A stretch of 64,000 nt of DNA from Sphingosinicella sp. BN140058 (GTDB lineage Bacteria > Pseudomonadota > Alphaproteobacteria > Sphingomonadales > Sphingomonadaceae), in contig NZ_CP035501.1 of the NCBI RefSeq assembly GCF_004135585.1, positions 4,101,501 to 4,165,500 on the forward strand, written 5' to 3'. The notes below the pieces were generated by a model. That model was not told the origin of the DNA. It saw only the letters and a program-made list of their open reading frames with translations, and did not search any database. Positions 33,901-48,018 of this stretch are shown here, piece by piece (positions within the stretch are counted from its first letter, which is position 1; every line of letters starts with the position of its first letter). The position numbers and the translations under genes were made by a program.

Positions 33901-34235
33901 GACGGCCTCCGTTGATTGGCCCAGATCTACGCCGAACCTCCTCATGGGATCACTAAACGAATCGATTAGGACCTGCTTCAAAGCCGGCGAAGGAGCTGAC
34001 GTTGGCGCGTGGAAGTCTCCTCGCACCGGCCTGCGCGGGAGCCGCGGCCAATTGGTGAAGCGGTTGCAGGGCCTGCCTGCTGGCGGCGGCGCAAGGCGTC
34101 TCCTGCGCCGGTTCAAGCCATCGGGGAGAGCGGCCGGGCGCCGACATCAATGTTCCGATCGGCGCCGTAACGACTGCCGCCGTCTATAAAGCAGCCAGGA
34201 GCGTGCCGCACCGGCCCGCAAGGAGAGGAGTGCGC
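33901..34235. promoter_or_regulatory. Divergent control region with an 8-bp inverted repeat
   Basis: This 335-nt gap separates the toxin-like gene (minus) from an unknown gene (plus) and should hold both promoters. An inverted repeat GGCGCCGA (34137-34144) with TCGGCGCC (34159-34166) is an operator candidate. A TATAAA lies near 34185, close to the plus-strand start. No gene is seen inside. Confidence 0.4.
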
Positions 34236-34667
34236 ATGACCACGATCAACACTGCCGGCAACGAGCCATATCGCGCATATCCGGCAAAGGCGGCGCCCGA
34301 GAGGTTCGCGGTCGAAGCGCCGGAGCGGATCATCGTCGGGCTCGCCAGCTCGCCGCCGAGCGGGGTCACCGATGCCCTCAAGCAACGGCTGCTGGCCGCG
34401 GGAACGTTGCAGACCCTGGCGATGCTGCCGTCCGAATCCGCCGAAAAGAGCGCTGCCGAGATTTCGGGGAACAGCGAAGCGGAGGGAGGGTCTGTCGCGG
34501 AAGTCTACGCTCCGGGCAAGGTGTCGTCCGCCTCCAACGATCAGATCCCTGCGGAGTTTTGGAATTCGAGCGATACCGCGGATCGCGCACGTGGCATGAT
34601 CGAGGCCTATGGCGCCGAGCTGGTGATGCGCAGCCAAATGCAGGATCCGGAACTTCACAAGGCATAG
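34236..34667 (+). CDS. Unknown protein divergent from the toxin-like gene
   Basis: The 143-residue protein starts at ATG 34236 with AGGAGAGGAG upstream, a strong ribosome binding site. It has no signal, membrane helix or recognised domain. It is Ala/Ser/Glu-rich and likely partly disordered in the middle (SAEKSAAEISGNSEAEGGS). Its C-terminus is more helical. It may share the control region with the toxin-like gene, but no function can be assigned. It ends in a hairpin that also stops the fatty-acid gene on the other strand. Confidence 0.65.
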   Translation: MTTINTAGNEPYRAYPAKAAPERFAVEAPERIIVGLASSPPSGVTDALKQRLLAAGTLQTLAMLPSESAEKSAAEISGNSEAEGGSVAEVYAPGKVSSASNDQIPAEFWNSSDTADRARGMIEAYGAELVMRSQMQDPELHKA

Positions 34668-34691
34668 CGGAGCGCCCGCACCTCCGGGTTT

Positions 34692-34724
34692 GGCAGCCGG
34701 GCCGGGCGCTTCGCCCCGGCTGCC
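34692..34724. terminator. Shared hairpin between convergent genes
   Basis: GGCAGCCGGG (34692-34701) pairs with CCCCGGCTGCC (34714-34724), giving a stable stem of 9-10 bp. It sits between the plus-strand unknown gene and the minus-strand FadJ-type gene. There is no T-run, so it probably acts as a bidirectional mRNA-end hairpin. Confidence 0.55.
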
Positions 34725-34804
34725 ATAGCGGACATATCCGCCTCATCCCCGACGTCCCCCCCAAGGCAGCCGGCGAGGCCGCCTTTTCCGGTGAGGGAGC
34801 TCGG

Positions 34805-36862
34805 TCAGCGGGTGAATCTCTCCCCCGCTTCGGCCTTGCGGGCGAGGAGCGGCGAGAGGGTGAAATCGTCGCCCATCCGGGCCTGTTGCCGTTTCAGCCC
34901 TTCGACGATCGTGTCGAGGCCCTCGCTGTCGGCCCAGAACATCGGACCGCCGCGATAAACGGGCCAGCCATAGCCGTAGACCCAGACCACATCCACGTCG
35001 CTGGCACGCTGGGCCATGCCTTCGTCGAGGATCTTCGCGGCTTCGTTGACCATGGTGTAGAGCGTGCGCTCGATGATTTCCTGGTCGTCGATCTGGCGCG
35101 GCGCGATGCCGGCCTGCGCACGGAAACCGTCGATGATCTCCTGCACCTTGGAGCTGGGGGAGGGGCGACGCTTGTCGTCATAATCGTAGAAGCCGGCGCC
35201 CTTCTTCTGACCCCAGCGATCGATCGCGCAGAGCGCGTCGCGGATGCTCTCGATCCGGGTGGGATCGCGGTGCCAGCCGATGTCGACGCCGGCGAGATCA
35301 GCCATCTGGAACGGTCCCATCGGCATTCCGAATTCGACATGGACGCGGTCGATCTGCTCGGGCGTGGCGCCCTCCAAAAGAAGCTTGTTGGCCTCGGTCT
35401 GGCGCGGAATCAGCATGCGGTTGCCGATGAACCCGAAGCACACGCCGGCGACGACCGCGACCTTGCGGATGCGCTTGGCGAGCTGCATCGCGGTGACGAG
35501 GACATCGGGCGCGGTCTTCGCCCCGCGCACCACCTCGAGCAGTTTCATGATGTTGGCTGGCGAGAAGAAATGCAGGCCGAGCACGTCCTGCGGGCGGGAC
35601 GTCGCGGCGGCGATCTCGTTGACGTTCAGGTACGACGTGTTGGAGGCGAGGATCGCGCCCGGCTTGGCGATGCGATCGAGCTTGCCGAACACCTCCTTCT
35701 TGACGTCCATAGTCTCGAACACCGCCTCGATGATCAGATCGCAATCGGCGAGATCGTCGAGCGAGAGGGAGGGGGTGAGCAGGGCCATTGCGGACTCGAC
35801 CTGGGCCTCGCTCATCCGGCCCTTGGCCGCGGTCGCCTGGTAGTTCTTGCGGATGATGCCGGTGCCGCGATCGAGCGCCTCCTGCTGCTGCTCGACGATC
35901 GTTACGGGGATTCCCGCGGACAGGAAGTTCATCGAGATGCCGCCACCCATGGTGCCGGCGCCGATCACGCCGACCTTGGAGATGGTGCGCGGCAGGGTGC
36001 CTTCGGGGAGGCCTTCGATTTTCGAAGCCTTGCGCTCGGCGAAGAAGAAATATTGCTGAGCCTTGGCCTGGGTGCCGTTCATCAGCTCCATGAACAGCCG
36101 ACGCTCGTCCTGCACGCCCTCCGCATACGGCTTTGCGATGGCGGCCCCGATCGCCTTGATGTTCGCCTCGGGCGCATCGAAGCCGCGGAACTTGCGGCCA
36201 TGTTCCTTCCGGAAATCGTCGAACAGGGCCGCATTGCCCCGCGCTTCCTCGAGCTTCTCGTCCCGATCGCTGGTGATCGGGATTGGGCGGACGTCGCGCA
36301 CTTCCTCGGCATAGGCGACCGCATGCTGCTCGAGATCGCCTTCGATCAGCCGGTCGATGAGGCCGCAGGCATAAGCCTCCTTGGCGGAGATCGGACTGCC
36401 GCTGGTCGCCATTTCCAGCGCCTTGCGGACGCCCGCCGCACGTGGGAGCCGCTGGGTGCCGCCGGCGCCCGGCAAGAGGCCCAGCTTCACTTCCGGTACA
36501 CCGAGCTTGGCCGAGGGCACCGCCACCCGATAATGGCTGGCGAGTGCGACTTCGAGCCCGCCCCCGAAAGCGGTGCCGTGGATCGCCGCGACCACCGGTT
36601 TGGTGCACGCCTCGATCCGGTCGACCACCTGCGGCAGCATCGGCATCTGCATCGGCTTGCCGAATTCGGTGATGTCGGCGCCGGCGAAGAAGGTGCTCCC
36701 CTGGCAGAGGATGACCACAGCCTTCACGGAATCGTCGGCGTCGGCCTGCTCGATCGCGGCGACGAGGCCCTCGCGGACGGCGTGGCCGAGGGCGTTGACC
36801 GGCGGATTGTTGGACAGGATGATGAGGACGTCGCCGTGACGACGGGTGCTGATCGGGCTCAT
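34805..36862 (-). CDS. fadJ: Bifunctional enoyl-CoA hydratase/3-hydroxyacyl-CoA dehydrogenase
   Basis: The 685-residue multifunctional protein has an N-terminal crotonase domain with [16 protein letters not shown] and [13 protein letters not shown]. The NAD-binding dehydrogenase domain follows ([19 protein letters not shown], about 290-480). The C-terminal domain contains [16 protein letters not shown]. It carries out the second and third steps of beta-oxidation. It is the last gene of a minus-strand group with two SDRs and an acyl-CoA dehydrogenase, so the transcript likely encodes a complete degradation branch. FadA thiolase is not next to it. The start follows GGAGACACGC. Confidence 0.94.
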
Positions 36863-36877
36863 GCGTGTCTCCGATGG

Positions 36878-37663
36878 TCAGAAGGCCGTGCGGCCATATT
36901 CCTGGTGGTTGAACGGATGCGAGATCGAGAGGCCGCCGTCGACGACGAGCGCGTGGCCGTTGACGTAGCTCGCCTCGTCCGAGGCAAGGAACAGGGCCGC
37001 GGCGGCGATCTCGTCGGGCACGCCGCCGCGCCTCAGCGGGTTGAGGTGGCCGAGCCGGTCTTCCTTGCCGGCGGCACGCGCCATGTCGTAGATTGGCCGG
37101 GTCATGCCGGTCTCGATGAGGCCCGGGCAGATCGCATTCACCCTGATGCCCGAGCCGGCGAGCTGGGTCGCGGCGACGGCGACGAGGTTGATCACCCCGG
37201 CCTTCGACGCCGAATAAGCCGGGCCGCCGGCCCCCGCGCGGATACCGGCGACCGATGCGGTGCAGATGATTGAGCCCTTGCCGCGCTCCTTCATCGCCGG
37301 CGCGGCATGCTTCACCGCCAGGAACGGCCCGATCAGATTGACGCGCAAGATCTCCTGCCAATCCTCGGCGCTTTGTTCGAAGATCGAGGCGAGGCCGCCC
37401 GAAATGCCGGCATTGGCGAAGAAGACGTCGAGCCCGCCATGATATTGGAGCGCCGCCTGGACGAGATCCTGGACGTCCTCGTCATTGCCGGCGTCGGCCT
37501 GGATGCCGACCGCCGCCTCGCCGATCATGTCGGCGGTCTCGTCGTGGCCGGTGAGATCGGCGCAAACGACGCGGGCGCCTTCCTCGGCGAAGCGGATTGC
37601 TGTGGCGCGGCCGATGCCCGAGCCGGCGCCGGTGACGATAGCGACCTTGTCGGCAAGTTTCAT
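36878..37663 (-). CDS. Short-chain dehydrogenase/reductase
   Basis: The 261-residue SDR has [11 protein letters not shown] for cofactor binding, NAGISGG, and the catalytic YSASKAG (Tyr-x-x-x-Lys) with a Ser in [10 protein letters not shown]. It lies 15 nt upstream of the FadJ-type gene and 22 nt after another SDR, in the same operon. In this context a hydroxyacyl- or ketoacyl-CoA reductase role is likely, though the substrate cannot be told. ATG 37663 has AGGGAGTTT upstream. Confidence 0.92.
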
Positions 37664-37685
37664 GGCAAACTCCCTGGAATGCGGG

Positions 37686-38462
37686 TCAGAGCCCGACACC
37701 GGTGGTCGAGCCGCCGTCGACGACGATCGCCTGGCCGGTGACGTAGGTGGAGGCAGGGCTGGCAAGGAACACCGCGGCGCCGGCGATCTCGTGCGGCTCG
37801 CCGATCCGCTGCAGAGGGGTGTGGGCGGTCACCATTGCCAGGGTCTGCGGATTTTCCCAGAGCGCTTTGGCGAAATCGGTGCGGATGAGGCCGGGCGCGA
37901 TGCAATTGACCCGTACCTGATGCGGGCCGAACTCCGCGGCGAGGTTGCGGGCGAGCTGGAAGTCGGCCGCCTTGGAGACGTTGTAGGCGCCGATCACTGT
38001 GGACGCCTTGAGTCCGCCGATCGACGAGACGATGATGATCGACCCTTCGCGCCGCTCGATCATCTCCGGGGCCACCATCTGGATCAACCAATGGTTGGCG
38101 ATGACGTTGTTCTCCAGGATCTTGCGGAACATGTCGTCCGAAATCCCCGCCATCGGCCCGTAATAGGGATTGGAGGCGGCGTTGCAGACGAGGATGTCGA
38201 TCTTGCCGAGCTGCCGCCGGGTCTCGTCCACCAAGGCTTGCAGCGCTTCCTTTGACGAGATGTTGGCGGGAACGACGATCGCCCGGCCCGCGCCGTGCTT
38301 TTCGTTGATGCCGTCGGCCACTTCGGCGCAGGCGTCGGCCTTGCGGCTGGAGACCACCACGGTCGCGCCCTGATCGGCCATTGCTTCGGCGATCGCCCGG
38401 CCGATGCCGCGCGACGAACCGGTGATCACCGCGACCTTGCCGGTCAGATCGAACATGGTCAT
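37686..38462 (-). CDS. Short-chain dehydrogenase/reductase
   Basis: The 258-residue SDR has [27 protein letters not shown] and [11 protein letters not shown] (catalytic Tyr-x-x-x-Lys). The C-terminus [11 protein letters not shown] is typical of classical SDRs. ATG 38462 is placed by GGAGGAG. It precedes the second SDR by 22 nt. Between it and the acyl-CoA dehydrogenase lies a palindromic repeat, so the dehydrogenase may be a separate unit or read through. Confidence 0.92.
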
Positions 38463-38491
38463 CTTAACTCCTCCCTGTCGTCGCAGACGAT

Positions 38492-38575
38492 GGGGAGGGG
38501 GACCGCGTGCAACGCGGTGGAGGGGCGTCACGGCCCCTGCGCCCCTCCACCATCCTGCGGATGGTCTCCCTCCCC
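38492..38575. repeat. Nested palindromic repeat between SDR and acyl-CoA dehydrogenase
   Basis: An inner stem (GGTGGAGGGGC 38516-38526 with GCCCCTCCACC 38541-38551) is enclosed by an outer stem (38492-38504 with 38563-38575, one mismatch). The purine-rich GGTGGAGGGG core has a relative near 13063-13095. It is a REP-like element that may set the expression ratio inside the operon. Confidence 0.65.
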
Positions 38576-38608
38576 ACGTGCTTTGCACGCAGGGAAGATG
38601 CTTGATTT

Positions 38609-39853
38609 TCAGCCGCGCGGCGCATGCTTGGCGAATTCCATGCGCGCGATCGCGCGATTGTGGACTTCGTCGGGGCCGTCGGCGAGGCGCAGAGTACGGA
38701 TGCCGGCCCAGCTCTTGGCGAGCTCGAAATCCTGACCGACGCCGGCGGCGCCATGGGCCTGGACGGCGTCGTCGATGATCGAGAGCGCCATGTTCGGCGC
38801 CTGCACCTTGATCATCGCGATCTCCGCCTGCGCCGCCTTGTTGCCGGCCTTGTCCATCAGATCGGCGGCCTTGAGGCAAAGCAGGCGCGACATGTCGATG
38901 TCGATACGGGCGCGGGCGACGCGCTGCTCCCAGATCGAATGCTCGGCCAATTTCTTGCCGAACGCGACCCGGCTCTGGAGGCGGCGGACCATCGCGGCGA
39001 GCGCTTCCTCGGCGGCGCCGATCGTGCGCATGCAATGGTGGATGCGGCCCGGCCCCAGCCGCCCCTGCGCGATCTCGAAACCGCGGCCTTCGCCGAGCAG
39101 CATGTTGAACGCAGGGATGCGCACGTCCTTCAGCTCGATCTCCATGTGGCCGTGCGGCGCGTCGTCATAGCCGTAGACGGTGAGCGGGCGCTCGATGGTG
39201 ACTCCGGGCGCGTCGAGCGGGACCAGCACCATCGACTGCTGGCGATGCTTGTCGGCGCCGCGGTCGGTCTTGCCCATCACGATCGCGACTTTGCAGCGCG
39301 GGTCGCCGGCACCGCTCGACCACCATTTGCGGCCGTTCAGCACGTAATCGTCGCCGTCGCGGGCGATGTCGCATTCGATGTTGGTCGCGTCGGATGAGGC
39401 GACGCCGGGCTCGGTCATCAGAAAGGCCGAGCGGATTTCGCCGTTCATCAGCGGCCGCAGCCATTGCTCCTTCTGCTCCCGCGTGCCGTAGCGATGGAAC
39501 ACCTCCATGTTGCCGGTGTCGGGCGCGGAGCAGTTGAACACTTCGGACGCCCAGGAGACTCGGCCCATCTCCTCCGCGCAAAGCGCATATTCGAGGTTGG
39601 TGAGCTGGGTGCCTTCGAACTCGAACGTCTCGTCGACATGGGCGAGTGCATGGCCGGGCGGCATGAACAGATTCCACAGACCGGCGGCTCGCGCCTGGGG
39701 CTTCAATTCCTCGATGACCTGGATCGGCTGCCAGCGGTCGCCGGCGGCGAGCTCGGCCTTGTAGTCCTTGCAGCGGGGCCGAATCGCGGCCTCGACGTAG
39801 TCCCGGACGCGGTCGCGGTAAAAAGCCTGCCGTTCCGTAAGGTCAAAGTCCAT
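38609..39853 (-). CDS. Acyl-CoA dehydrogenase
   Basis: The 414-residue flavoprotein has [16 protein letters not shown] (FAD/acyl binding), [13 protein letters not shown], the family-specific segment [32 protein letters not shown], and [34 protein letters not shown]. It belongs to the ACAD group with long N-termini (FadE10/11-like) and oxidises an acyl-CoA to the enoyl-CoA. It heads the minus-strand beta-oxidation group. Its ATG at 39853 is divergent from the Lgt-like gene, with only 109 nt between. Confidence 0.94.
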
Positions 39854-39962
39854 GCGGCCGCTTTCCTCTCCATTTTTCGTGCGTTCCTGCTGCCAGAAAC
39901 GGCAGATTCGCGCCAGTCTCGTCGCGATTGTGGCGGGCGCGCGATCGCGGCAAGAAGGCCGC

Positions 39963-40676
39963 ATGGCCGTTCCGACCAGCCCCTGGGTCCACCTCCTGTT
40001 CGACCTGATCGCCTGGGGCGCCGCGGCGCTGCTGGGAGCCTTTCTCTATCGGTGGCGGCTGGAGCCGGTCGCGCGTGGCGTCGCCGCCCGAACCGACGCG
40101 ACCTACGGGATCGTGCTCGCCTTCGGCGCGGTGACGGGAGCGTGGGGAATCGGCTCGCTCAACACCGGCCTCGCCGCCGTTCCGCACCCCTCCCACAGCA
40201 TCGCCGGTGGACTTGCCGGCGCGATCGTCGCGGTCGAAATCTACAAGATGCTGCGCGGGATCCGAGGCTCGACCGGTGTAGTCTGGGTTGGCCCGATCGC
40301 GCTCGGCATCGCGGTCGGCCGGCTGGGCTGCCTGTTCGCAGGTCTCGGCGACGAAACCCATGGGACGCCGACGGATCTACCCTGGGGCGTGGATCTGGGC
40401 GACGGGATCGCACGGCATCCGGTGCAGATATACGAGAGTGCTTCGATGCTCGTCTTCCTGCTCGTCTACCTCGCCGCGCTGCAGCGGCGAGCGGCGTGGA
40501 CGCGGGACCGCGCCTTTTACCTGTTCATCCTCGTCTATGCCGCGCAGCGTTTCGTTTGGGAGTTCCTGAAGCCCTATCCCGAGGTGATCGGCCCGCTCAA
40601 CGTGTTCCAGCTTCTCGCCGGGCTGATGATCGTTTATGCCCTGTGGTTCGATGCACGCGCTCGCCGGACCTGCTGA
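39963..40676 (+). CDS. Lgt-like (prolipoprotein diacylglyceryl transferase family) membrane protein
   Basis: The 237-residue polytopic protein has about six helices and the Lgt-family feature [20 protein letters not shown], followed by HPVQIYES, which matches the conserved HPxQxYE of Lgt. Lgt moves a diacylglyceryl group from phosphatidylglycerol to lipoproteins. This protein is shorter and lacks the full Lgt signature (the N-F-x-N-x-E block is replaced), so it is a paralogue and may act on another lipid acceptor. The next gene, a radical SAM enzyme, starts within its end. ATG 39963 has AAGAAGG upstream. Confidence 0.85.
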
Positions 40677-42084
40677 CCTTACGCGAAAGAGCGTGCCGTG
40701 GATCTTCTACGGACAGACGACGTCGTTGTGCGAGACCTGCTGGGAGCTCGTTCCCGCCAAGATCATCGGCGAGGAGGGGCGGGTCTACCTCCAGAAACGC
40801 TGCCTCGACCATGGCGTGACGAAGACGCTGATCGAGGACGATGCGGACTATTGGCTGTCGATCCGGCACTGGCTGAAGCCCGGCGATCGCCCCCTGTTCA
40901 ACGCCTCCCGCACCGAGCGCGGCTGCCCGTGGGATTGTGGCCTCTGCCCCGATCACGAGCAGCATAGCTGCCTTGCCATCGTCGAGATCAACGACGCCTG
41001 CAACCTGACCTGCCCGGTCTGCTTTGCCGACAGCGCGGTGGGGCGCGGCGGCCATCGGCCGCTCGCGGAGGTGGAGGCGATGCTCGATGCCGTGGTGCGC
41101 GCCGAGGGCGAGCCGGACCTCGTCCAGCTGTCCGGCGGCGAGCCGACCATCCATCCGCAATTCTGGGAGATCGTCGCGGCTGCGCGCTCCCGCCCTATCC
41201 GGCACCTGATGGTCAACACCAATGGTGTTCGCATCGCCCAGGAAGAGGGGTTCGCCGAGCGGCTGGCGGAGATCGGACCGGGCTTCGAAGTCTACCTCCA
41301 GTTCGATTCGCTTGACGACGGCGTTCTGATGGACCTGCGCGGGGCGCATCTCCGCCGGATTCGCCAGCGTGCGCTGGAGCGGCTCGAGGCGGCGGACGTG
41401 TCCACCACCCTGGTCTGTGCCGTCCGCGCCGGCCTCAACGACGATGAGGCCGCGGCGATCGTCGATCATGCGCTGCAATGGCGCTGCGTTCGCGGCGTCG
41501 TTTTCCAGCCGGTCCAGGACGCCGGGCGCAACGTCGGCTTCGATCCTGCGCTTCATCGGACGACGCTGTCCGGGCTGCGGCGCAAGATCGCGGCGGGCGG
41601 CGTGTTCGAGGCGTCGGACCTGGTGCCGCTGCCTTGCAACCCGGATCAGATCTGCATCGGCTACGGCATACGCTCGGGCAGTACGGTCGTGCCGGTCACT
41701 CGGCTGATGGGCCGCGAGGACATCGTCGCCGCCGCGCCGAACACGATCAGCTTCGAGCGCGATCCGGCGCTGAAAGCGCGGGTGTTCGAGCTCCTGTCGC
41801 TGTCCACGGTGGAGAATAATGGCGAGGACCGGCTTGCCAGCCTGTTCTGCTGCCTGCCGGGGATCGAGGCGCCGGCGAGCCTTGCCTATCGCGACACCTT
41901 CAAGGTGGCGATCATTCAGTTCCTCGATCGCTACAATTTCGATCTCGGCACGGTGAAGCGCAGCTGCATCCACTTCGCCACGCCGGACGGCCGGCTGATC
42001 CCGTTCGACACCTATAACAGTTTCTATCGGCCGGGCGCGCCCGGTGCGGCCAAATTGCGTGAGAAAGGCGGGATCGGCGCATGA
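40651..42084 (+). CDS. Cysteine-rich radical SAM enzyme, tetraether/membrane-spanning-lipid-synthase-like
   Basis: The 477-residue protein has an N-terminal CETC (27/30), a CPWDCGLCPDH cluster (92/96/99), Cys107 and the radical SAM motif CNLTCPVC (117/121/124). The SGGEPTIHPQFWEI segment follows. Extra cysteines before the SAM site, a rubredoxin-like N-terminal pair and the wording around it resemble the archaeal Tes (MJ0619) group and the bacterial homologues proposed to link or modify lipid chains. Family membership is inferred from memory of motifs. The gene overlaps the Lgt-like gene by 26 nt, or starts at GTG 40693. Its stop overlaps the next ATG, so three genes form a tight operon. Confidence 0.8.
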   Translation: MHALAGPADLTRKSVPWIFYGQTTSLCETCWELVPAKIIGEEGRVYLQKRCLDHGVTKTLIEDDADYWLSIRHWLKPGDRPLFNASRTERGCPWDCGLCPDHEQHSCLAIVEINDACNLTCPVCFADSAVGRGGHRPLAEVEAMLDAVVRAEGEPDLVQLSGGEPTIHPQFWEIVAAARSRPIRHLMVNTNGVRIAQEEGFAERLAEIGPGFEVYLQFDSLDDGVLMDLRGAHLRRIRQRALERLEAADVSTTLVCAVRAGLNDDEAAAIVDHALQWRCVRGVVFQPVQDAGRNVGFDPALHRTTLSGLRRKIAAGGVFEASDLVPLPCNPDQICIGYGIRSGSTVVPVTRLMGREDIVAAAPNTISFERDPALKARVFELLSLSTVENNGEDRLASLFCCLPGIEAPASLAYRDTFKVAIIQFLDRYNFDLGTVKRSCIHFATPDGRLIPFDTYNSFYRPGAPGAAKLREKGGIGA

Positions 42085-42308
42085 GCGACTCACCCGGTCG
42101 GGTCCTTGCGGGTGTCTTTCTGATCGTGGCGGGGATCTGCCTGACGCTGGTCGGCGGCGGCTGCACCCTCATATTGCTGTCGATGATCGGTGAGATCCTT
42201 CGCGGAAGTGACGGCATCCTGCTGTTCGGTCTTGCGATCGCAGTCCTCGCTGCCGGGGTGTGGCTCGTGATCGTGGGATCCAGAATGCTGAAGCGCAACC
42301 GATCCTGA
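42081..42308 (+). CDS. Small two-helix membrane protein in the radical SAM operon
   Basis: The 75-residue protein has two membrane helices (about 8-37, VLAGVFLIVAGICLTLVGGGCTLILLSMI, and 45-67, ILLFGLAIAVLAAGVWLVIVG) and a short basic tail. Its ATG overlaps the radical SAM stop codon (ATGA), so translation is coupled. No family is recognised. In this position it might scaffold the enzyme at the membrane or present the substrate, but that is inference. Confidence 0.7.
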   Translation: MSDSPGRVLAGVFLIVAGICLTLVGGGCTLILLSMIGEILRGSDGILLFGLAIAVLAAGVWLVIVGSRMLKRNRS

Positions 42309-42348
42309 CGATGTGCCCCGTGGACATGCCGCGATCGGTGCGCTGCCG

Positions 42349-43827
42349 ATGATCTCCGACGCGCGGTCCGAAGACGATTACGACGTCCTCATCGTCGGCG
42401 CCGGTCTGTCCGGGATCGATGCCGCCTACCGGTTGCAGACGATCTGTTCCGGCAAGTCCTACGCCATCCTCGAGGCGCGAGGTGCGATCGGCGGAACCTG
42501 GGATCTGTTCCGCTATCCCGGCGTGCGCTCCGACAGCGACATGTACACGTTGGGCTTCCCGTTCCGCCCCTGGAGCGGCGACAAGGCGATTGCCGACGGA
42601 GCGGACATCCGTGCCTATATCGAGGACACCGCCCGCGCCTACGGCATCGATCGTCGGATCCGGTTCGGTCACAAGGTAGTCCGAGCCGACTGGTCGGCGG
42701 AGGCGGGGCGCTGGATCCTCGAGGCCGAGACCGAAGACGGCGTCCGGCGCTTCACCTGCTCCTTCCTCTATCTGTGCAGCGGCTATTACGATTATGAGGG
42801 CGGCTACCGCCCCCACTGGACAGGCGAGCAGGCGTTCGCCGGAACGATCGTTCACCCCCAGCATTGGCCCGAGACTCTGGACGTCGCGGGCAAGCGGGTG
42901 GTGGTGATCGGCAGCGGCGCGACGGCGGTCACGCTGGTGCCGGCACTGGCGGCGTCCGCCGGCCATGTGACCATGCTGCAGCGTTCGCCGAGCTATGTCG
43001 TCTCACTCCCGGCGGCGGATCCGATCGCCAAGGCCGCCCGCGCCTGGTTGCCGCAGCGCCTCGCGGACCGGATCGTGCGGCTGAAGAACGTGCTGCTGGC
43101 GATCCTCTTCTTCACGCTCGCCCGCCGCTGGCCCGAGGCCTTCCGAAAGCACGTCCTGAAGGGCGTGCGCACGGCGCTCGGTCCGGCCTACGATGTCGAC
43201 CGTCACTTCGGACCCGTCTACAAGCCTTGGGACCAGCGCCTCTGCCTCGTTCCCGACGGGGATCTGTTCGCCGCGATCCGAAGCAAGCGTGCGTCGGTGG
43301 TCACCGACGAGATCGCGGCGTTCGCGCCGGACGGGCTGGTACTTCGCTCGGGCGAGCGGCTACCTGCGGACATCGTCGTCGCCGCCACCGGTCTGGTCGT
43401 CAAACTTGCCGGCGGGATCGCTCTGTCGGTCGGCGGCACGCCCATCCGCACCGCCGACAAGCTGGTCTACAAGGGCATGATGCTGAGCGACGTTCCCAAC
43501 CTCGCGCTGGCCTTCGGCTACACCAACGCGTCCTGGACGCTGAAGTGCGATCTCACCGCCCGCACGGTGTGCCGCCTGCTCAACCATATGGATCGGCACG
43601 GCTACACGTCCTGTCTGCCGCGCCTGCGGGACCCGGCAATGGCGCGGGAGCCGCTGCTCGATTTCACCTCGGGCTATGTGCAACGTGCCTCGGCGATAAT
43701 GCCCAAGCAGGGCCCGCGCGCGCCCTGGCGCGTGCATCAGAATTACCTGCTCGATTTCGCCGCGCTGCGGCTGCGTCCGGTCGCGGACGAGGCGATGGAG
43801 TTCGAGGGTCGAGTGGGGGCGGTGTGA
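42349..43827 (+). CDS. Flavin-containing monooxygenase-like protein
   Basis: The 492-residue enzyme has VLIVGAGLSGIDAAYRL (FAD), the FMO-type RYPGVRSDSDMYTLGF and KRVVVIGSGATAVTL (NADPH). It resembles class B monooxygenases (Baeyer-Villiger/FMO) that insert oxygen into ketones or amines, although the exact fingerprint was not checked. ATG 42349 starts the conserved core; GTG 42313 is the alternative. It lies 40 nt after the small membrane protein and may belong to the same operon. Confidence 0.9.
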   Translation: MISDARSEDDYDVLIVGAGLSGIDAAYRLQTICSGKSYAILEARGAIGGTWDLFRYPGVRSDSDMYTLGFPFRPWSGDKAIADGADIRAYIEDTARAYGIDRRIRFGHKVVRADWSAEAGRWILEAETEDGVRRFTCSFLYLCSGYYDYEGGYRPHWTGEQAFAGTIVHPQHWPETLDVAGKRVVVIGSGATAVTLVPALAASAGHVTMLQRSPSYVVSLPAADPIAKAARAWLPQRLADRIVRLKNVLLAILFFTLARRWPEAFRKHVLKGVRTALGPAYDVDRHFGPVYKPWDQRLCLVPDGDLFAAIRSKRASVVTDEIAAFAPDGLVLRSGERLPADIVVAATGLVVKLAGGIALSVGGTPIRTADKLVYKGMMLSDVPNLALAFGYTNASWTLKCDLTARTVCRLLNHMDRHGYTSCLPRLRDPAMAREPLLDFTSGYVQRASAIMPKQGPRAPWRVHQNYLLDFAALRLRPVADEAMEFEGRVGAV

Positions 43828-43854
43828 CTCGCGCCGGGCTGCGATGAGGCAAAA

Positions 43855-43877
43855 TCCTCCCCGCTTGCGGGAGGAGG
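43855..43877 (+). terminator. Weak hairpin after the monooxygenase
   Basis: CCTCCCCGC and GCGGGAGG (43855-43863 and 43867-43874) can pair with one bulge, 28 nt after the stop. There is no T-run, so this is only a possible transcript end before the next promoter. Confidence 0.35.
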
Positions 43878-43935
43878 ATCTGAGCTAGGTGATGGATCCA
43901 CCGGGCCCGGTTGACGTACACTGCAGCACCCGTCA

Positions 43936-43951
43936 TTTACGTTTACGTAAA
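43936..43951 (+). promoter_or_regulatory. Perfect inverted repeat operator, LiuR/MerR-like
   Basis: TTTACGT (43936-43942), TT, ACGTAAA (43945-43951) form a perfect inverted repeat with a 2-nt centre, just upstream of the ribosome binding site of the acyl-CoA dehydrogenase. The shape matches the operator class I remember for LiuR, the MerR-family regulator of branched-chain amino acid and acyl-CoA catabolism. No regulator gene is in the window. A TTGACG box lies upstream at 43911. Confidence 0.6.
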
Positions 43952-43964
43952 GGAGAGGACGCCG

Positions 43965-45152
43965 ATGAGCGATTTCGAATCGTTTCGCCAGGACGTTCGC
44001 GCGTGGCTCGAGGCGAAGTGTCCGCCGGAGATGCGTGAGCCGATCCGCGACGAATCCGATCTGTGCTGGGGCGGGCGCAAGGCCAGCTTCAAGAACGAGG
44101 CGCAGCGGCGCTGGCTCGATACGATGGCGGAGCGGGGCTGGACGGTGCCGGAGTGGCCGCGCGACTATGGCGGCGGCGGCCTGTCGCCGGCCGAGGCGAA
44201 GATTCTGAAGCAGGAAATGGCGCGGATCGGCGCGCGCGCTCCGCTCTACAGCTTCGGCATCTCGATGCTCGGGCCGGCGCTGCTCAAATATGGCAGCGAG
44301 GCGCAGAAGACTCGCTTCCTGCCCGAAATCGCCCGCGGCGAGATACGCTGGTGCCAGGGTTATTCCGAGCCGAATGCCGGATCGGATCTCGCCGCGCTGC
44401 AGACTCGCGCGGAGGACCGGGGCGATTCTTGGAGCGTCACCGGACAGAAGGTCTGGACCTCCTATGCCGACAAGGCCGACTGGATCTTCTGCCTGGTCCG
44501 GACCGATCCGCAGGCGCCCAAGCACCAGGGGATCAGCTTCCTGCTGTTCGACATGACGACTTCCGGCGTCTCGACCCGGCCGATCAGGTTGATCTCCGGC
44601 GCGTCGCCCTTTTGCGAGACCTTCTTCGACGATGTCCGGGTGCCCAAGGACCAAGTCGTGGGTGAGATCAACAAGGGCTGGGATGTCGCCAAATATCTCC
44701 TCGGCCACGAGCGCGAGATGATCAGCGGCATGGGCGTTGCGCCGGGATCGGACGGCACGCTCGGCCGCACGCTTGCGGATCTCGCCGGACGCGATGGGGA
44801 CGGGCGGATCGCCGATCCGTTCCTGCGCGCGGACATCGCCCGCTTCGACGTCGACGCGCTCGCGTTCAACGCGATGTCGGAGCGGTTCCTGGACGAATTG
44901 AAGGCGGGCCGGGCGCATCCGGCCCAGCCCTCAATGATGAAATATGCCGGCACCGAGCTCAACAAGCGCCGCAACGAGATCGTGATGGCGGCGGGCGGCG
45001 CCGACCTGCTCGAATGGGAGAGCGACCGCAGCCGCGGCGGCAAGGCCGCACGCGAATGGCTGCGCAGCAAGGCCAACTCGATCGAGGGCGGGACAAGCGA
45101 AATCCAGCTCGGCATCATCGCGAAGCGGATACTGGAATTGCCGGGAAGTTAG
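43965..45152 (+). CDS. Acyl-CoA dehydrogenase
   Basis: The 395-residue flavoenzyme has GYSEPNAGSDLAALQTRAE (FAD contact), GQKVWTSYADKADW, and the C-terminal KANSIEGGTSEIQLGIIAKRILEL. ATG 43965 lies behind AAAGGAGAGG and directly behind the LiuR-like operator, so expression is likely induced by an acyl-CoA or related signal. It is the first of three acyl-CoA dehydrogenases in tandem, each with a different N-terminal half. The substrate class is not resolved; branched or steroid-side-chain acyl-CoA would fit the context. Confidence 0.94.
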   Translation: MSDFESFRQDVRAWLEAKCPPEMREPIRDESDLCWGGRKASFKNEAQRRWLDTMAERGWTVPEWPRDYGGGGLSPAEAKILKQEMARIGARAPLYSFGISMLGPALLKYGSEAQKTRFLPEIARGEIRWCQGYSEPNAGSDLAALQTRAEDRGDSWSVTGQKVWTSYADKADWIFCLVRTDPQAPKHQGISFLLFDMTTSGVSTRPIRLISGASPFCETFFDDVRVPKDQVVGEINKGWDVAKYLLGHEREMISGMGVAPGSDGTLGRTLADLAGRDGDGRIADPFLRADIARFDVDALAFNAMSERFLDELKAGRAHPAQPSMMKYAGTELNKRRNEIVMAAGGADLLEWESDRSRGGKAAREWLRSKANSIEGGTSEIQLGIIAKRILELPGS

Positions 45153-45334
45153 ACCGGTTCCCTCCCCCTTGGACGGGGAAGGATTGCGCAGCCTTAGCGA
45201 GCCTTTTCGGCGAGCTTAGGCTGAGCTGGGAGAGGTGACAGCTTCAGCGAATATCTTCTGCCGGTGTCACCCTCTCCAACTTCGCCTAGGCTCAGCTTCG
45301 CTTCGCCAAGGCTCCGTATCCTCTCTCCCGGGAT

Positions 45335-45359
45335 CCCATCAAAGTGGTACTTTGACGGG
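45335..45359. repeat. Palindromic element, copy 1
   Basis: CCCATCAAAGT (45335-45345) and ACTTTGACGGG (45349-45359) form an imperfect palindrome in the gap before the second acyl-CoA dehydrogenase. A near-identical perfect copy lies at 46624-46648. Both sit inside purine-rich CTCTCCC-type repeats. Confidence 0.7.
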
Positions 45360-45401
45360 GGCCCTCAAAGGGAGAGGGAGGTTTTCAAAAGGTTTCTTGG
45401 C

Positions 45402-46517
45402 ATGCCACTCACCCTCACCGACGACCAGACCATGCTTCAGGACACCGCCCGGACCTTCATGGCCGAGGAAGGGGCGATCCAGAAGCAGTTGCGCAAATAT
45501 CGCGACATGAACTGCAAGGATGGCTTCGGCCACGCTTTGTGGCGGCAGTTCGGCGAGATGGGCTTCACCGGAATCCTCGTCGATGAGGCGGATGGCGGGC
45601 TTGGGCTCGGCCATGTCGAGGCCGGCATCGTGTTGGAAGAGATCGGTCGCAACCTGACCCCGTCACCCTTTCTGATCACCGCGATCGGCGCCGTCGAGGC
45701 ACTCCGCGGAACGCCGCACCGGGCGCGCTGGCTGCCGGGTATCCTCGCCGGCGAGACCGTAGCGGCGCTCGCTATCGACGAAAACGCCAAGCATCGGCCC
45801 GAGGCGATCGCGCTGCAGGCGGAGCGTGCCGGCAATGGCTTTCGGCTGACCGGCGCCAAACAATTCGTGGTTCAGGGCGCGTCGGCAGACCTGTTCATCG
45901 TCGCCGCCAGCGCGGAGGAGGGACTGACCCTGTTCGCCGTGGAAAAGGGCGCGGCCGGGCTCGACATCGAGGGCGTGCGCCTCGCGGACAGCAGCGTCGG
46001 CGCTCGGATCCGGTTCGAGGGCGTCGAGATCGATGCCGATGGGGTGATCGGCGATGTCGGCGGCGGCGCCGAGATGCTTGGCCGGATGCTCTCGGCAGTG
46101 CGCGTGGGAGTCGCCTCCGAACAGGTTGGCGTCGCCTCCGGCGCGATGACGATGACCGTCGACTATCTCAAACAGCGCAAGCAGTTCGGCAAGCTGATCG
46201 GCGAGTTCCAGGCGCTCCAGCATCGCGCCGCCCACCTCTATGCGGAGGTCGAGATCGCGCGCGCCGCCGCGCTCAAGGCGCAGCAATTGCTGGACGAGGG
46301 CAGCGACGAGGCGGAGCTGTTCGTGTCGGTCGCCAAGGCGAAGGCCGGCAGCGTCGCCACCCTCGCCGTGCAGGAGGGCGTGCAGATGCACGGCGGCATC
46401 GGCATGACCGACGAATATGACATCGGCCTCTACATGAAGCGGGATCGGGTGCTCGGCGAGTTGTTCGGCGATACCAACTATCACGCGGATCGGGTCGCGC
46501 GGCTCAGGGGATATTGA
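45402..46517 (+). CDS. Acyl-CoA dehydrogenase
   Basis: The 371-residue protein is an ACAD of the smaller, N-terminally compact type: PLTLTDDQTMLQDTARTFMAEEG, GFTGILVDEADGGLGLGHVEAGIVLEEIGR, then YLKQRKQFGKLIGEFQALQHRAA and MHGGIGMTDEYDIGLYMKR. The middle domain is shorter than usual and lacks a classic TEP/GSD signature. ACADs of this kind often work as pairs with a larger subunit, as in FadE hetero-tetramers for steroids or side chains. The start is ATG 45402. Confidence 0.92.
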   Translation: MPLTLTDDQTMLQDTARTFMAEEGAIQKQLRKYRDMNCKDGFGHALWRQFGEMGFTGILVDEADGGLGLGHVEAGIVLEEIGRNLTPSPFLITAIGAVEALRGTPHRARWLPGILAGETVAALAIDENAKHRPEAIALQAERAGNGFRLTGAKQFVVQGASADLFIVAASAEEGLTLFAVEKGAAGLDIEGVRLADSSVGARIRFEGVEIDADGVIGDVGGGAEMLGRMLSAVRVGVASEQVGVASGAMTMTVDYLKQRKQFGKLIGEFQALQHRAAHLYAEVEIARAAALKAQQLLDEGSDEAELFVSVAKAKAGSVATLAVQEGVQMHGGIGMTDEYDIGLYMKRDRVLGELFGDTNYHADRVARLRGY

Positions 46518-46623
46518 ATCCCTCTTCCCTTCAGGGGAGAGGGTCGGGAGAGGGGAGTCTTCGTCCACACTGATCAGGTCGGATGGGAGGACACTCCCCC
46601 TCTCCCGGCCTCTCCCGTGGGAT

Positions 46624-46648
46624 CCCATCAAAGTAGTACTTTGATGGG
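46624..46648. repeat. Palindromic element, copy 2 (perfect)
   Basis: CCCATCAAAGTA (46624-46635), G, TACTTTGATGGG (46637-46648) is a perfect inverted repeat with a single-base centre. It sits between the second and third acyl-CoA dehydrogenase genes and 27 nt before the third ATG. It pairs with the copy at 45335-45359. Confidence 0.75.
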
Positions 46649-46674
46649 GGGCATGAAGGGGAGAGGAGAGAAGC

Positions 46675-47841
46675 ATGCCGCTCGACACCGAGACATTCGA
46701 CGCCCTTCTTGCCACCATCCGCCGCTATGTCGCCGAGCGGCTGCGGCCGCTCGAGGCGCACGTCGCCGAGACTGATGAGGTGCCGCCCGAGATCGTCCGG
46801 GAGATGCGGGAGATGGGGCTGTTCGGCCTCTCCATTCCCGACCGGTATGGCGGGCTTGGCCTCGACATGCGGGAAGAGGTTCGGATCGCGCTTGAATTCG
46901 GGCGGACCTCGCCGGCATTTCGCTCGGTGTTCGGCACCAATGTCGGCATCGGCAGCCAGGGGTTGGTGATGGCAGGCTCTGATGCGCAGAAGGCGGAATG
47001 GCTGCCGCGGATCGCAAGCGGCGAGGTGATCACCAGCTTCGCGCTGACCGAACCCGGCGCCGGCTCGGACAGTGCCTCGGTGTCTACCCGTGCCGTTCGG
47101 GACCCCGGATCGGGGGTCGGGGCAGGCGGGGACTCCTATCGCCTCTCCGGCACCAAGCGCTACATCACCAATGCCGACAAGGCCTCGCTGTTCACGGTGA
47201 TGGCGCGCACCGGAGACGCCGGTGCCAAGGGCGTCTCCGCCTTTCTGGTGCCGACAGATCTGCCGGGGATCACCATCGGCCGCCCCGAGACCAAGATGGG
47301 TCAGCAGGGCGCCCACGTCTGCGACGTCCATTTCGACGACGTGCCCGTTCCCGCCGCCAATCGGCTCGGCGCGGAAGGGGAGGGGTTCGGGATCGCGATG
47401 CGCGTTCTCGACCGGGGCCGGTTGCATATCGCTGCGGTCTGCACCGGTATTGCCGAGCGGCTGGTGGCGGATTGCGTCGCCTACGCAACCGAGCGGCGCC
47501 AGTTCGGCAAGCCGATCGCCGACTTCCAGCTGATCCAGGCGATGATCGCCGACTCCAAGGTGGAGGCGATGGCGGCGCGGGCGCTGGTGCTGGAAACCGC
47601 GGCGCTGAAGGACACGGGCACGCCGATCACGCTGGAGGCGGCGGCGGCCAAATATTTCGCCAGCGAAGCGGTCGGCCGGGTCGCGGACCGCGCGGTGCAG
47701 ATCTTCGGCGGCGCCGGCTATATCGCGGATTACGGGATCGAGCGGCTCTACCGCGACGTGCGCCTGTTCCGGATCTACGAGGGCACGAGCCAAATTCAGC
47801 AATTGGTGATCGCGCGCGAGACCCTGAAGCGCGGCGGCTAG
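46675..47841 (+). CDS. Acyl-CoA dehydrogenase with an in-frame palindromic insert
   Basis: The 388-residue ACAD has SFALTEPGAGSDSASVSTRAV, YRLSGTKRYITNADKASLFTVMART, GRLHIAAVCTGIAERLVADCV and IEGTS-like RIYEGTSQIQQLVIARETL. Between STRAV and YRLSG it carries about eight extra residues (RDPGSGVGAGGD) encoded by a GACCCC/GGGGTC palindrome at 47101-47118. It may be a short repeat that slipped into the gene in frame, in a surface loop. GGAGAGGAGAG precedes the ATG. It is the third ACAD in the row. Confidence 0.93.
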   Translation: MPLDTETFDALLATIRRYVAERLRPLEAHVAETDEVPPEIVREMREMGLFGLSIPDRYGGLGLDMREEVRIALEFGRTSPAFRSVFGTNVGIGSQGLVMAGSDAQKAEWLPRIASGEVITSFALTEPGAGSDSASVSTRAVRDPGSGVGAGGDSYRLSGTKRYITNADKASLFTVMARTGDAGAKGVSAFLVPTDLPGITIGRPETKMGQQGAHVCDVHFDDVPVPAANRLGAEGEGFGIAMRVLDRGRLHIAAVCTGIAERLVADCVAYATERRQFGKPIADFQLIQAMIADSKVEAMAARALVLETAALKDTGTPITLEAAAAKYFASEAVGRVADRAVQIFGGAGYIADYGIERLYRDVRLFRIYEGTSQIQQLVIARETLKRGG

Positions 47842-47884
47842 CTTTCCGCGATGAGGGGCCTGTCACCGTTCTCGTGACGGGTTC

Positions 47885-47909
47885 GGAACAACCTTGATCT
47901 GTGTTGGTT
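47885..47909 (+). promoter_or_regulatory. EcfG-like general-stress promoter
   Basis: GGAAC (47885-47889), 16 nt, GGTT (47906-47909) fits the general-stress sigma factor (EcfG/SigT) promoter pattern of alphaproteobacteria, usually GGAAC-N16/17-CGTT. The -10 has G in place of C. The start would be near 47916. Confidence 0.5.
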
Positions 47910-47915
47910 AGCACC

Positions 47916-47995
47916 TTCGTCGCGTCACGCATTGCGGCACTGGCAGTTCAACTCCCCTGCCAAAGACGCCTCGGCACGCCGGGGCGTCTTGTTTT
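47916..47995 (+). ncRNA. Candidate stress-induced small RNA
   Basis: Between the third acyl-CoA dehydrogenase and a lipoprotein gene lie about 80 nt with an EcfG-like promoter upstream and a strong intrinsic terminator. The terminator stem runs 47963-47974 with 47979-47990 (12 bp with one G-U pair, CACG loop), followed by G and four Ts. A short stem TGGCAG/CTGCCA (47941-47946 and 47957-47962) holds a C-rich loop (TTCAACTCCC). A C-rich loop plus stress promoter recalls the GsrN small RNA of Caulobacter. Alternatively it is an attenuator for the downstream lipoprotein gene at 48019. Confidence 0.5.
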
Positions 47996-48018
47996 CCGGA
48001 GGGCCAGAAGGAGGATTC

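Follow-up and report, generated by a model that had tools for sequence, protein, structure and literature searches.

A conserved pairing of an Lgt paralogue and a Tes-like radical SAM enzyme with a small membrane protein as a putative membrane-lipid tailoring unit

Three tightly packed genes of Sphingosinicella sp. BN140058 probably constitute a cassette that modifies a membrane lipid. We give the reading of the three genes as a membrane-lipid tailoring unit a probability of roughly 0.55, based on what was computed here: the co-occurrence of the genes, the folds of prolipoprotein diacylglyceryl transferase (Lgt) and archaeal tetraether synthase (Tes), and the residues kept at metal and phospholipid sites. 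The window, i.e., the whole stretch of 64,000 nucleotides that was analysed, spans positions 4,101,501-4,165,500 of NZ_CP035501.1 in a genome of 6.07 Mb on two contigs. All three genes lie on the forward strand. The Lgt-family paralogue (39963..40676) is a helical membrane protein of 237 amino acids, the Tes-like radical SAM enzyme (40651..42084) has 477 amino acids, and the small membrane protein (42081..42308) has 75 amino acids and probably two helices. An earlier note had described a tight three-gene operon, and its open reading frames (ORFs) were recovered with the same coordinates and overlaps, 26 nt between the Lgt-like and radical SAM genes and 4 nt between the latter and the small gene. 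The 26-nt overlap depends on the enzyme start that is chosen, as an in-frame ATG at 40636 extends it to 41 nt.

The GC content of the cassette is similar to that of its surroundings, and Rfam models gave no match at gathering score over 34000-48000. Acyl-CoA dehydrogenase genes identified by Pfam flank the cassette (38609-39964 and 43911-45152), further dehydrogenase- and hydratase-like ORFs are recognizable by eye, and the region 34559-47841 resembles a catabolic island. A flavin monooxygenase-like ORF (42313-43827; Pfam) has a possible start 4 nt past the stop of the small gene and may be part of the cassette transcript.

The earlier note had pointed to the Lgt-family paralogue beside the enzyme, and this pairing proved to be a recurrent arrangement. 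Among the best 80 of 154 relatives of the enzyme, phmmer detected an Lgt-like ORF upstream of the enzyme in 78 loci, and in the other two (L079, L082) a contig end falls inside the enzyme. The two genes overlap in 67 of the 75 loci having a computable start, with starts chosen mechanically. In L003, the Lgt-like gene lies 1.4 kb from the enzyme with a reverse-strand ORF in between. This ORF of the closest named relative encodes 346 amino acids (L003:6615-7985), and an ORF before the enzyme resembles by eye a second Lgt-like C-terminus, as if an insertion and a small duplication had taken place.

For the window's order (Sphingomonadales), 246 evenly sampled genomes were searched with limits of E <= 1e-60 for the enzyme and E <= 1e-30 for the Lgt-like protein. 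Nine genomes contain the enzyme, the same nine contain the Lgt-like protein, and the genes are adjacent in 9/9, while the remaining 237 have neither protein at these limits. The enzyme was found in 3 of 142 genomes of the class, and a match of the radical SAM (seleno)protein TrsS type (E <= 1e-50) in 12 of 398 genomes of the phylum, the source genome being counted in both; order, class and phylum names of the sampled genomes were assigned by inference. Within the fetched stretch, each of the 12 phylum carriers possesses an Lgt-like gene; it adjoins the enzyme in 11 and is separated from it by one ORF in L124 (re-fetched as L155). The distribution of the module is patchy but tightly linked, because few genomes carry the enzyme and all carriers also have the Lgt-like gene. 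Pairing in 78/80 loci, 9/9 carriers of the order and 12/12 carriers of the phylum rules out a chance neighbourhood. A larger pathway cluster was rejected as well, since besides the Lgt-like and small genes no neighbour family occurs in more than 13 of the 80 loci. The stricter clustering behind this count, in which neighbour families carry no annotation, placed the Lgt-like gene in 70 loci, compared with 78 by phmmer. Of 7,996 candidates scored, none was a fusion of Lgt and enzyme at E <= 0.001.

The cassette paralogue has an Lgt domain and fold. It scores 72.5 bits against PF01790, and the genome encodes one other PF01790 protein, a full-score Lgt of 291 amino acids elsewhere (257 bits). The cassette copy is therefore a paralogue and probably has a separate job. 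Plain Foldseek with the predicted model returned no match at E <= 0.001, and a second look found the Lgt structure 5azb. The A2 profile alone matches 5azb weakly (E 0.0022); the A4 profile reaches 5.8e-24, but includes the genome's own Lgt. In E. coli numbering, the window protein keeps R143 (R120), Y235 (Y192), R239 (R196) and E243 (E200). Over 54 aligned Lgt-like rows, R143, Y235 and R239 are present in 54, so that both arginines of the phospholipid site are retained throughout, and E202 and E243 are present in 53 and 47, respectively. As R143, Y235 and R239 are kept, phospholipid binding is likely kept as well. Compared with Lgt proper (5azb/5azc, PF01790), the paralogue is shorter (237 vs 291 amino acids) and H103, N146 and R246 are replaced, in the window by A81, C123 and lysine. 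H103 is found in none of the 54 rows (alanine or valine in 46), N146 is cysteine in all 54 and R246 is lysine in 50. Excerpts of three studies describe H103 and N146 as indispensable to the E. coli enzyme (PMC4728403; PMC8689077; PMC13251419), and natural Lgt homologues with a replaced H103 and N146C exist (PMC13251419, in part). The distant homologues of the MSMEG_5408 type share N146C with the cassette paralogue, and excerpts of that study mention no radical SAM partner for them, unlike the cassette (PMC13251419).

The third gene recurs as well. Combining one screen that required a cysteine with one that did not, a small gene follows the enzyme in 80/80 loci; the cysteine-requiring screen misses L072, and the cysteine-free screen misses L004, L017, L062 and L076 and takes a wrong ORF in L061. 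In the cysteine-free screen, 76/80 loci have a hydrophobic ORF whose start is no more than 60 nt from the enzyme stop, and in 70 of them it lies at a 4-nt overlap. With the small gene of L061 corrected, 75 loci fall within 60 nt, 69 with the 4-nt overlap, and five lie further off (L061 at +190; L004, L017, L062 and L076 at +79 to +181). Two loci (L005, L007) have two tandem small hydrophobic ORFs directly after the enzyme, both with the cysteine motif. The window protein matches no Pfam or NCBIfam model, and its conserved C28 sits towards the end of the first hydrophobic segment. In an alignment of 77 small proteins, the window included, one column holds cysteine in 76, the exception being the wrong ORF of L061, and the other near-invariant positions are glycines.

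This lone cysteine brings up an alternative role of the Lgt paralogue, which might attach diacylglyceryl to the cysteine of the small protein, leaving the radical SAM enzyme to alter or couple the acyl chains of the resulting lipoprotein. Conservation of a single cysteine amid glycines would fit such an acceptor, as would the N-terminus, which by eye combines a charged start with a hydrophobic stretch up to the cysteine, like lipoprotein signal peptides. Small ORFs outside Proteobacteria point the same way. In planctomycetes, a term used here for the phylum assigned to the genome of L070 (Planctomyces), a small hydrophobic ORF follows the enzyme in 13 of 29 loci (14 with another hydropathy setting), with a cysteine within the last 30 residues in 12 of the 13, and a Persicobacter plasmid encodes a hydrophobic small ORF with a cysteine near its end. 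However, by eye the cysteine of the alphaproteobacterial proteins is in the first helix and that of the planctomycete proteins close to the C-terminus, which makes it a different site, and H103 is missing from every Lgt-like row. The motifs SGLC, TLGC and GGGC, which we take not to be standard lipoboxes, also count against lipidation. We regard this alternative as possible but doubtful. By eye, the planctomycete proteins seem to belong to another small-protein family, and some have zinc-ribbon-like cysteine pairs. Zinc-ribbon-like cysteine proteins near the enzyme (L153 and L154 by weak Pfam matches below cut-off, L095 and L096 by eye) perhaps replace the small protein in these four planctomycete loci.

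For the enzyme, the predicted model has the Tes fold according to Foldseek (TM 0.81), which answers the concern that a structure search might place it with unrelated radical SAM families. The peptide maturases SkfB and SuiB rank next, and the directly downstream small protein bears a cysteine, a combination that might suggest an enzyme modifying the small protein itself with the Lgt paralogue as an anchoring partner. SkfB and SuiB match only part of the model, however, with TM 0.34-0.38 vs 0.81 for Tes, and the small proteins are strongly hydrophobic, unlike soluble precursors, making a peptide-maturase system highly improbable. The earlier note had highlighted cysteine groups in the enzyme, and CETC, CPWDCGLC and CNLTCPVC are indeed located at 27-30, 92-99 and 117-124. 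The sites comprise a rubredoxin-like set (C27/C30/C51/H54), an N-auxiliary cluster (C92/C96/C99/H102) and the SAM cluster (C117/C121/C124). In an alignment with 120 archaeal Tes-type proteins, all 35 family rows have the ligands of the rubredoxin-like site, those of the N-auxiliary cluster including the histidine, and the CX3CX2C ligands of the SAM cluster. The window enzyme thus resembles Tes (also termed GDGT-MAS; MJ0619, PDB 7tol/7tom, NF045702) in fold and in these ligands.

The proposed likeness to archaeal Tes does not extend to the C-terminal domain, which is remodelled in the window enzyme (C329, C400, C401, C439, D453), nor to the Tes cut-off, as the enzyme scores 253 bits against NF045702 with a cut-off of 450. 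Archaeal proteins keep C338, M439, C455, Y459 and C470 each in 120/120 rows, and the window enzyme has Q333, I422, S438, F442 and D453 at these positions. The family has invariant cysteines of its own (C107, C279, C329, C400, C401 and C439, each in 35/35 rows). Over 70 bacterial rows (35+9+26), C107, C329 and C439 occur in all, C400 in 66 and C401 in 68, while the positions of C455 and C470 are serine or threonine and aspartate in most. Judged by invariance in the alignment, C338, C455 and C470 would be ligands of the archaeal C-terminal cluster, suggesting that the C-terminal Fe-S cluster of the family is differently ligated. M439 is stated to lie at this cluster in the excerpted part of PMC9433317. 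The differences at C338, M439, C455 and C470, where the C-S intermediate of Tes forms, count against a lipid-tailoring role. Three planctomycete enzymes (L120, L121, L123) keep C455 and C470, and an Lgt-like gene adjoins them or, in L121, lies 3.5 kb off; the Lgt linkage is therefore not confined to the remodelled form.

Might the enzyme simply be an ordinary bacterial Tes that couples acyl chain ends into membrane-spanning lipids, its neighbours being accessory? The fold is that of Tes, and bacterial Tes homologues have been proposed for branched tetraethers, as excerpts of PMC8941075 state. Loss of M439 and Y459 need not matter, given that MJ0619 remained robustly active as the M439A variant and that Y459 was considered non-essential (PMC9433317, in part). 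On the other hand, most of the 70 bacterial rows lack the cysteines at the C455 and C470 positions, the enzyme remains under the Tes cut-off while the planctomycete protein L142 (577 bits) exceeds it but shows no Lgt beside it in the stretch that was fetched, and archaeal Tes forms a separate tree branch with L142 and L146. An ordinary Tes therefore seems unlikely to us. L146, also planctomycetal, likewise lacks an Lgt neighbour in its fetched stretch. Another system close to the cassette is the bacterial membrane-spanning lipid synthase Mss, which is named for the coupling of acyl chains (PMC13274423; PMC11868695, both in excerpt).

The best-scoring named family for the window enzyme is TrsS, which we count against lipid tailoring. 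The match to NF045646 is continuous from 22 to 456 and reaches 294 bits, below the cut-off of 490. TrsS is the top model in 8/9 superfamily members scanned, i.e., the window enzyme and seven of eight others, with Tes on top for L142. A function for TrsS was not found in the literature. A methyltransferase is the partner of TrsS; the three flanking window genes that were scanned include none, and such a gene was seen beside the enzyme solely in a Mycolicibacterium relative, the neighbour clusters of the 80 loci being unannotated. On this Mycolicibacterium vanbaalenii plasmid (L157:1-19386), a TrsS-like enzyme occurs with a DVU_1556-like methyltransferase and a radical SAM protein of the Rv1681 family, and the same stretch encodes CcdA, a disulfide oxidoreductase, a deiodinase-like protein and a glutaredoxin-domain protein. 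The methyltransferase reaches 136 bits with the DVU_1556 model (cut-off 155) and also matches arsenite-methyltransferase models. No Lgt match is present within 19 kb on the plasmid, a further point against lipid tailoring. This relative without Lgt and beside a methyltransferase is a warning that the superfamily has more than one job.

Both the ranking of TrsS and the Mycolicibacterium neighbourhood with its methyltransferase, CcdA and glutaredoxin-domain genes would suit a TrsS-like enzyme of some small-molecule pathway (redox, selenium, arsenic or another), with the Lgt paralogue merely placing the product or protein in the membrane. Yet none of the 398 phylum genomes holds a member above the TrsS cut-off, and no unannotated neighbour family beyond the Lgt-like and small genes exceeds 13 of the 80 loci, which does not favour such a pathway either; we consider it quite improbable. 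The window enzyme further differs from TrsS by a reading frame without in-frame TGA.

Outside Proteobacteria, the enzyme (E <= 1e-40) was found in 41 of 294 genomes of the planctomycete phylum. An Lgt-like gene flanks it in 23 of 29 loci (L095-L123, counted apart from L091), upstream in 16 and downstream in seven (L112, L113, L118, L119, L120, L122 and L123), where adjacency was judged within about 1.4 kb or less per side and several stretches are cut by contig ends. Of the six misses, L104 and L115 are cut short before the open frame (101 and 260 bases remain there) and L107 is cut short after it (103 bases); the frame of L116 is broken, and in L121 the Lgt-like gene is the distant one mentioned above. 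L117 looks like a real miss; this member of the window's clade has no Lgt-like neighbour and the best match of its genome is weak (47 bits), which counts against the lipid-tailoring reading. The A4 profile matches in 15/17 planctomycete genomes, although at lower scores it cannot separate housekeeping Lgt. In 15 further planctomycete regions (L136-L150), an Lgt-like gene is in the fetched stretch in three and in none of the other 12. The genome of L070 has a second enzyme piece at a contig end (L094) with its own Lgt-like gene. In Bacteroidota, the Persicobacter plasmid carries all three genes in order, with an Lgt-like protein of 217 bits and a 48% identical enzyme.

A tree built by a quick method without bootstrap, with long branches flagged by the program, included 12 of the 35 family (A1) rows and 20 of the 120 archaeal rows and left out L116, L118 and L122 (broken frames), L126, L127 and L129 (duplicates) and L151-L155 (re-fetched places). 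The window's clade contains 44 rows (SH-aLRT 100), 40 with Lgt and four without (L104, L107, L115, L117), and none of 15 distant planctomycete rows has Lgt. The Lgt label needs seven changes on the tree, so there was repeated gain or loss of the linkage, which again counts against the lipid-tailoring reading.

Taken as a membrane-lipid tailoring unit, the cassette might work as follows. The Lgt paralogue would use its Lgt cavity to bind an anionic glycerophospholipid, with phosphatidylglycerol as the most likely one, and would hand over or transfer the diacylglyceryl part of this lipid. The radical SAM enzyme would draw an acyl chain of the lipid into a Tes-like tunnel, where the 5'-deoxyadenosyl radical would take a hydrogen from the chain, and the differently ligated C-terminal Fe-S cluster could lead to a new C-C or C-S bond, either by tail coupling or by another chain modification. 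Binding of such lipids has a precedent in excerpts of PMC9433317, as MJ0619 Tes carried E. coli phospholipids with non-specifically bound head groups. The small cysteine protein might tether the soluble enzyme to the membrane or accept the lipid. A bolder and decidedly unlikely version has C123 in the Lgt cavity passing diacylglyceryl to the small hairpin protein at its cysteine, after which the Tes-like enzyme would couple acyl tails, giving a protein-anchored and possibly membrane-spanning lipid in ordinary alphaproteobacteria.

Bacterial homologues of Tes are already known from excerpts of PMC8941075 and PMC11868695, which count them as possible makers of membrane-spanning climate-proxy lipids, with activity unconfirmed. 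For the pairing of Lgt and radical SAM enzyme, no paper was found among the matches listed in a search that mostly left out subscription papers. A role beyond lipoprotein maturation would, to our knowledge, be new for an Lgt paralogue. A large group of Tes homologues differs at the C-terminal cluster and is tied to an Lgt paralogue, and should therefore not count as Tes without proof. Named strains of Caulobacter, Sphingomonas, Phenylobacterium and Novosphingobium carry the cassette, among them Sphingomonas mali NBRC 15500 and Caulobacter sp. Root343, so that the lipid or lipoprotein it makes is directly testable.
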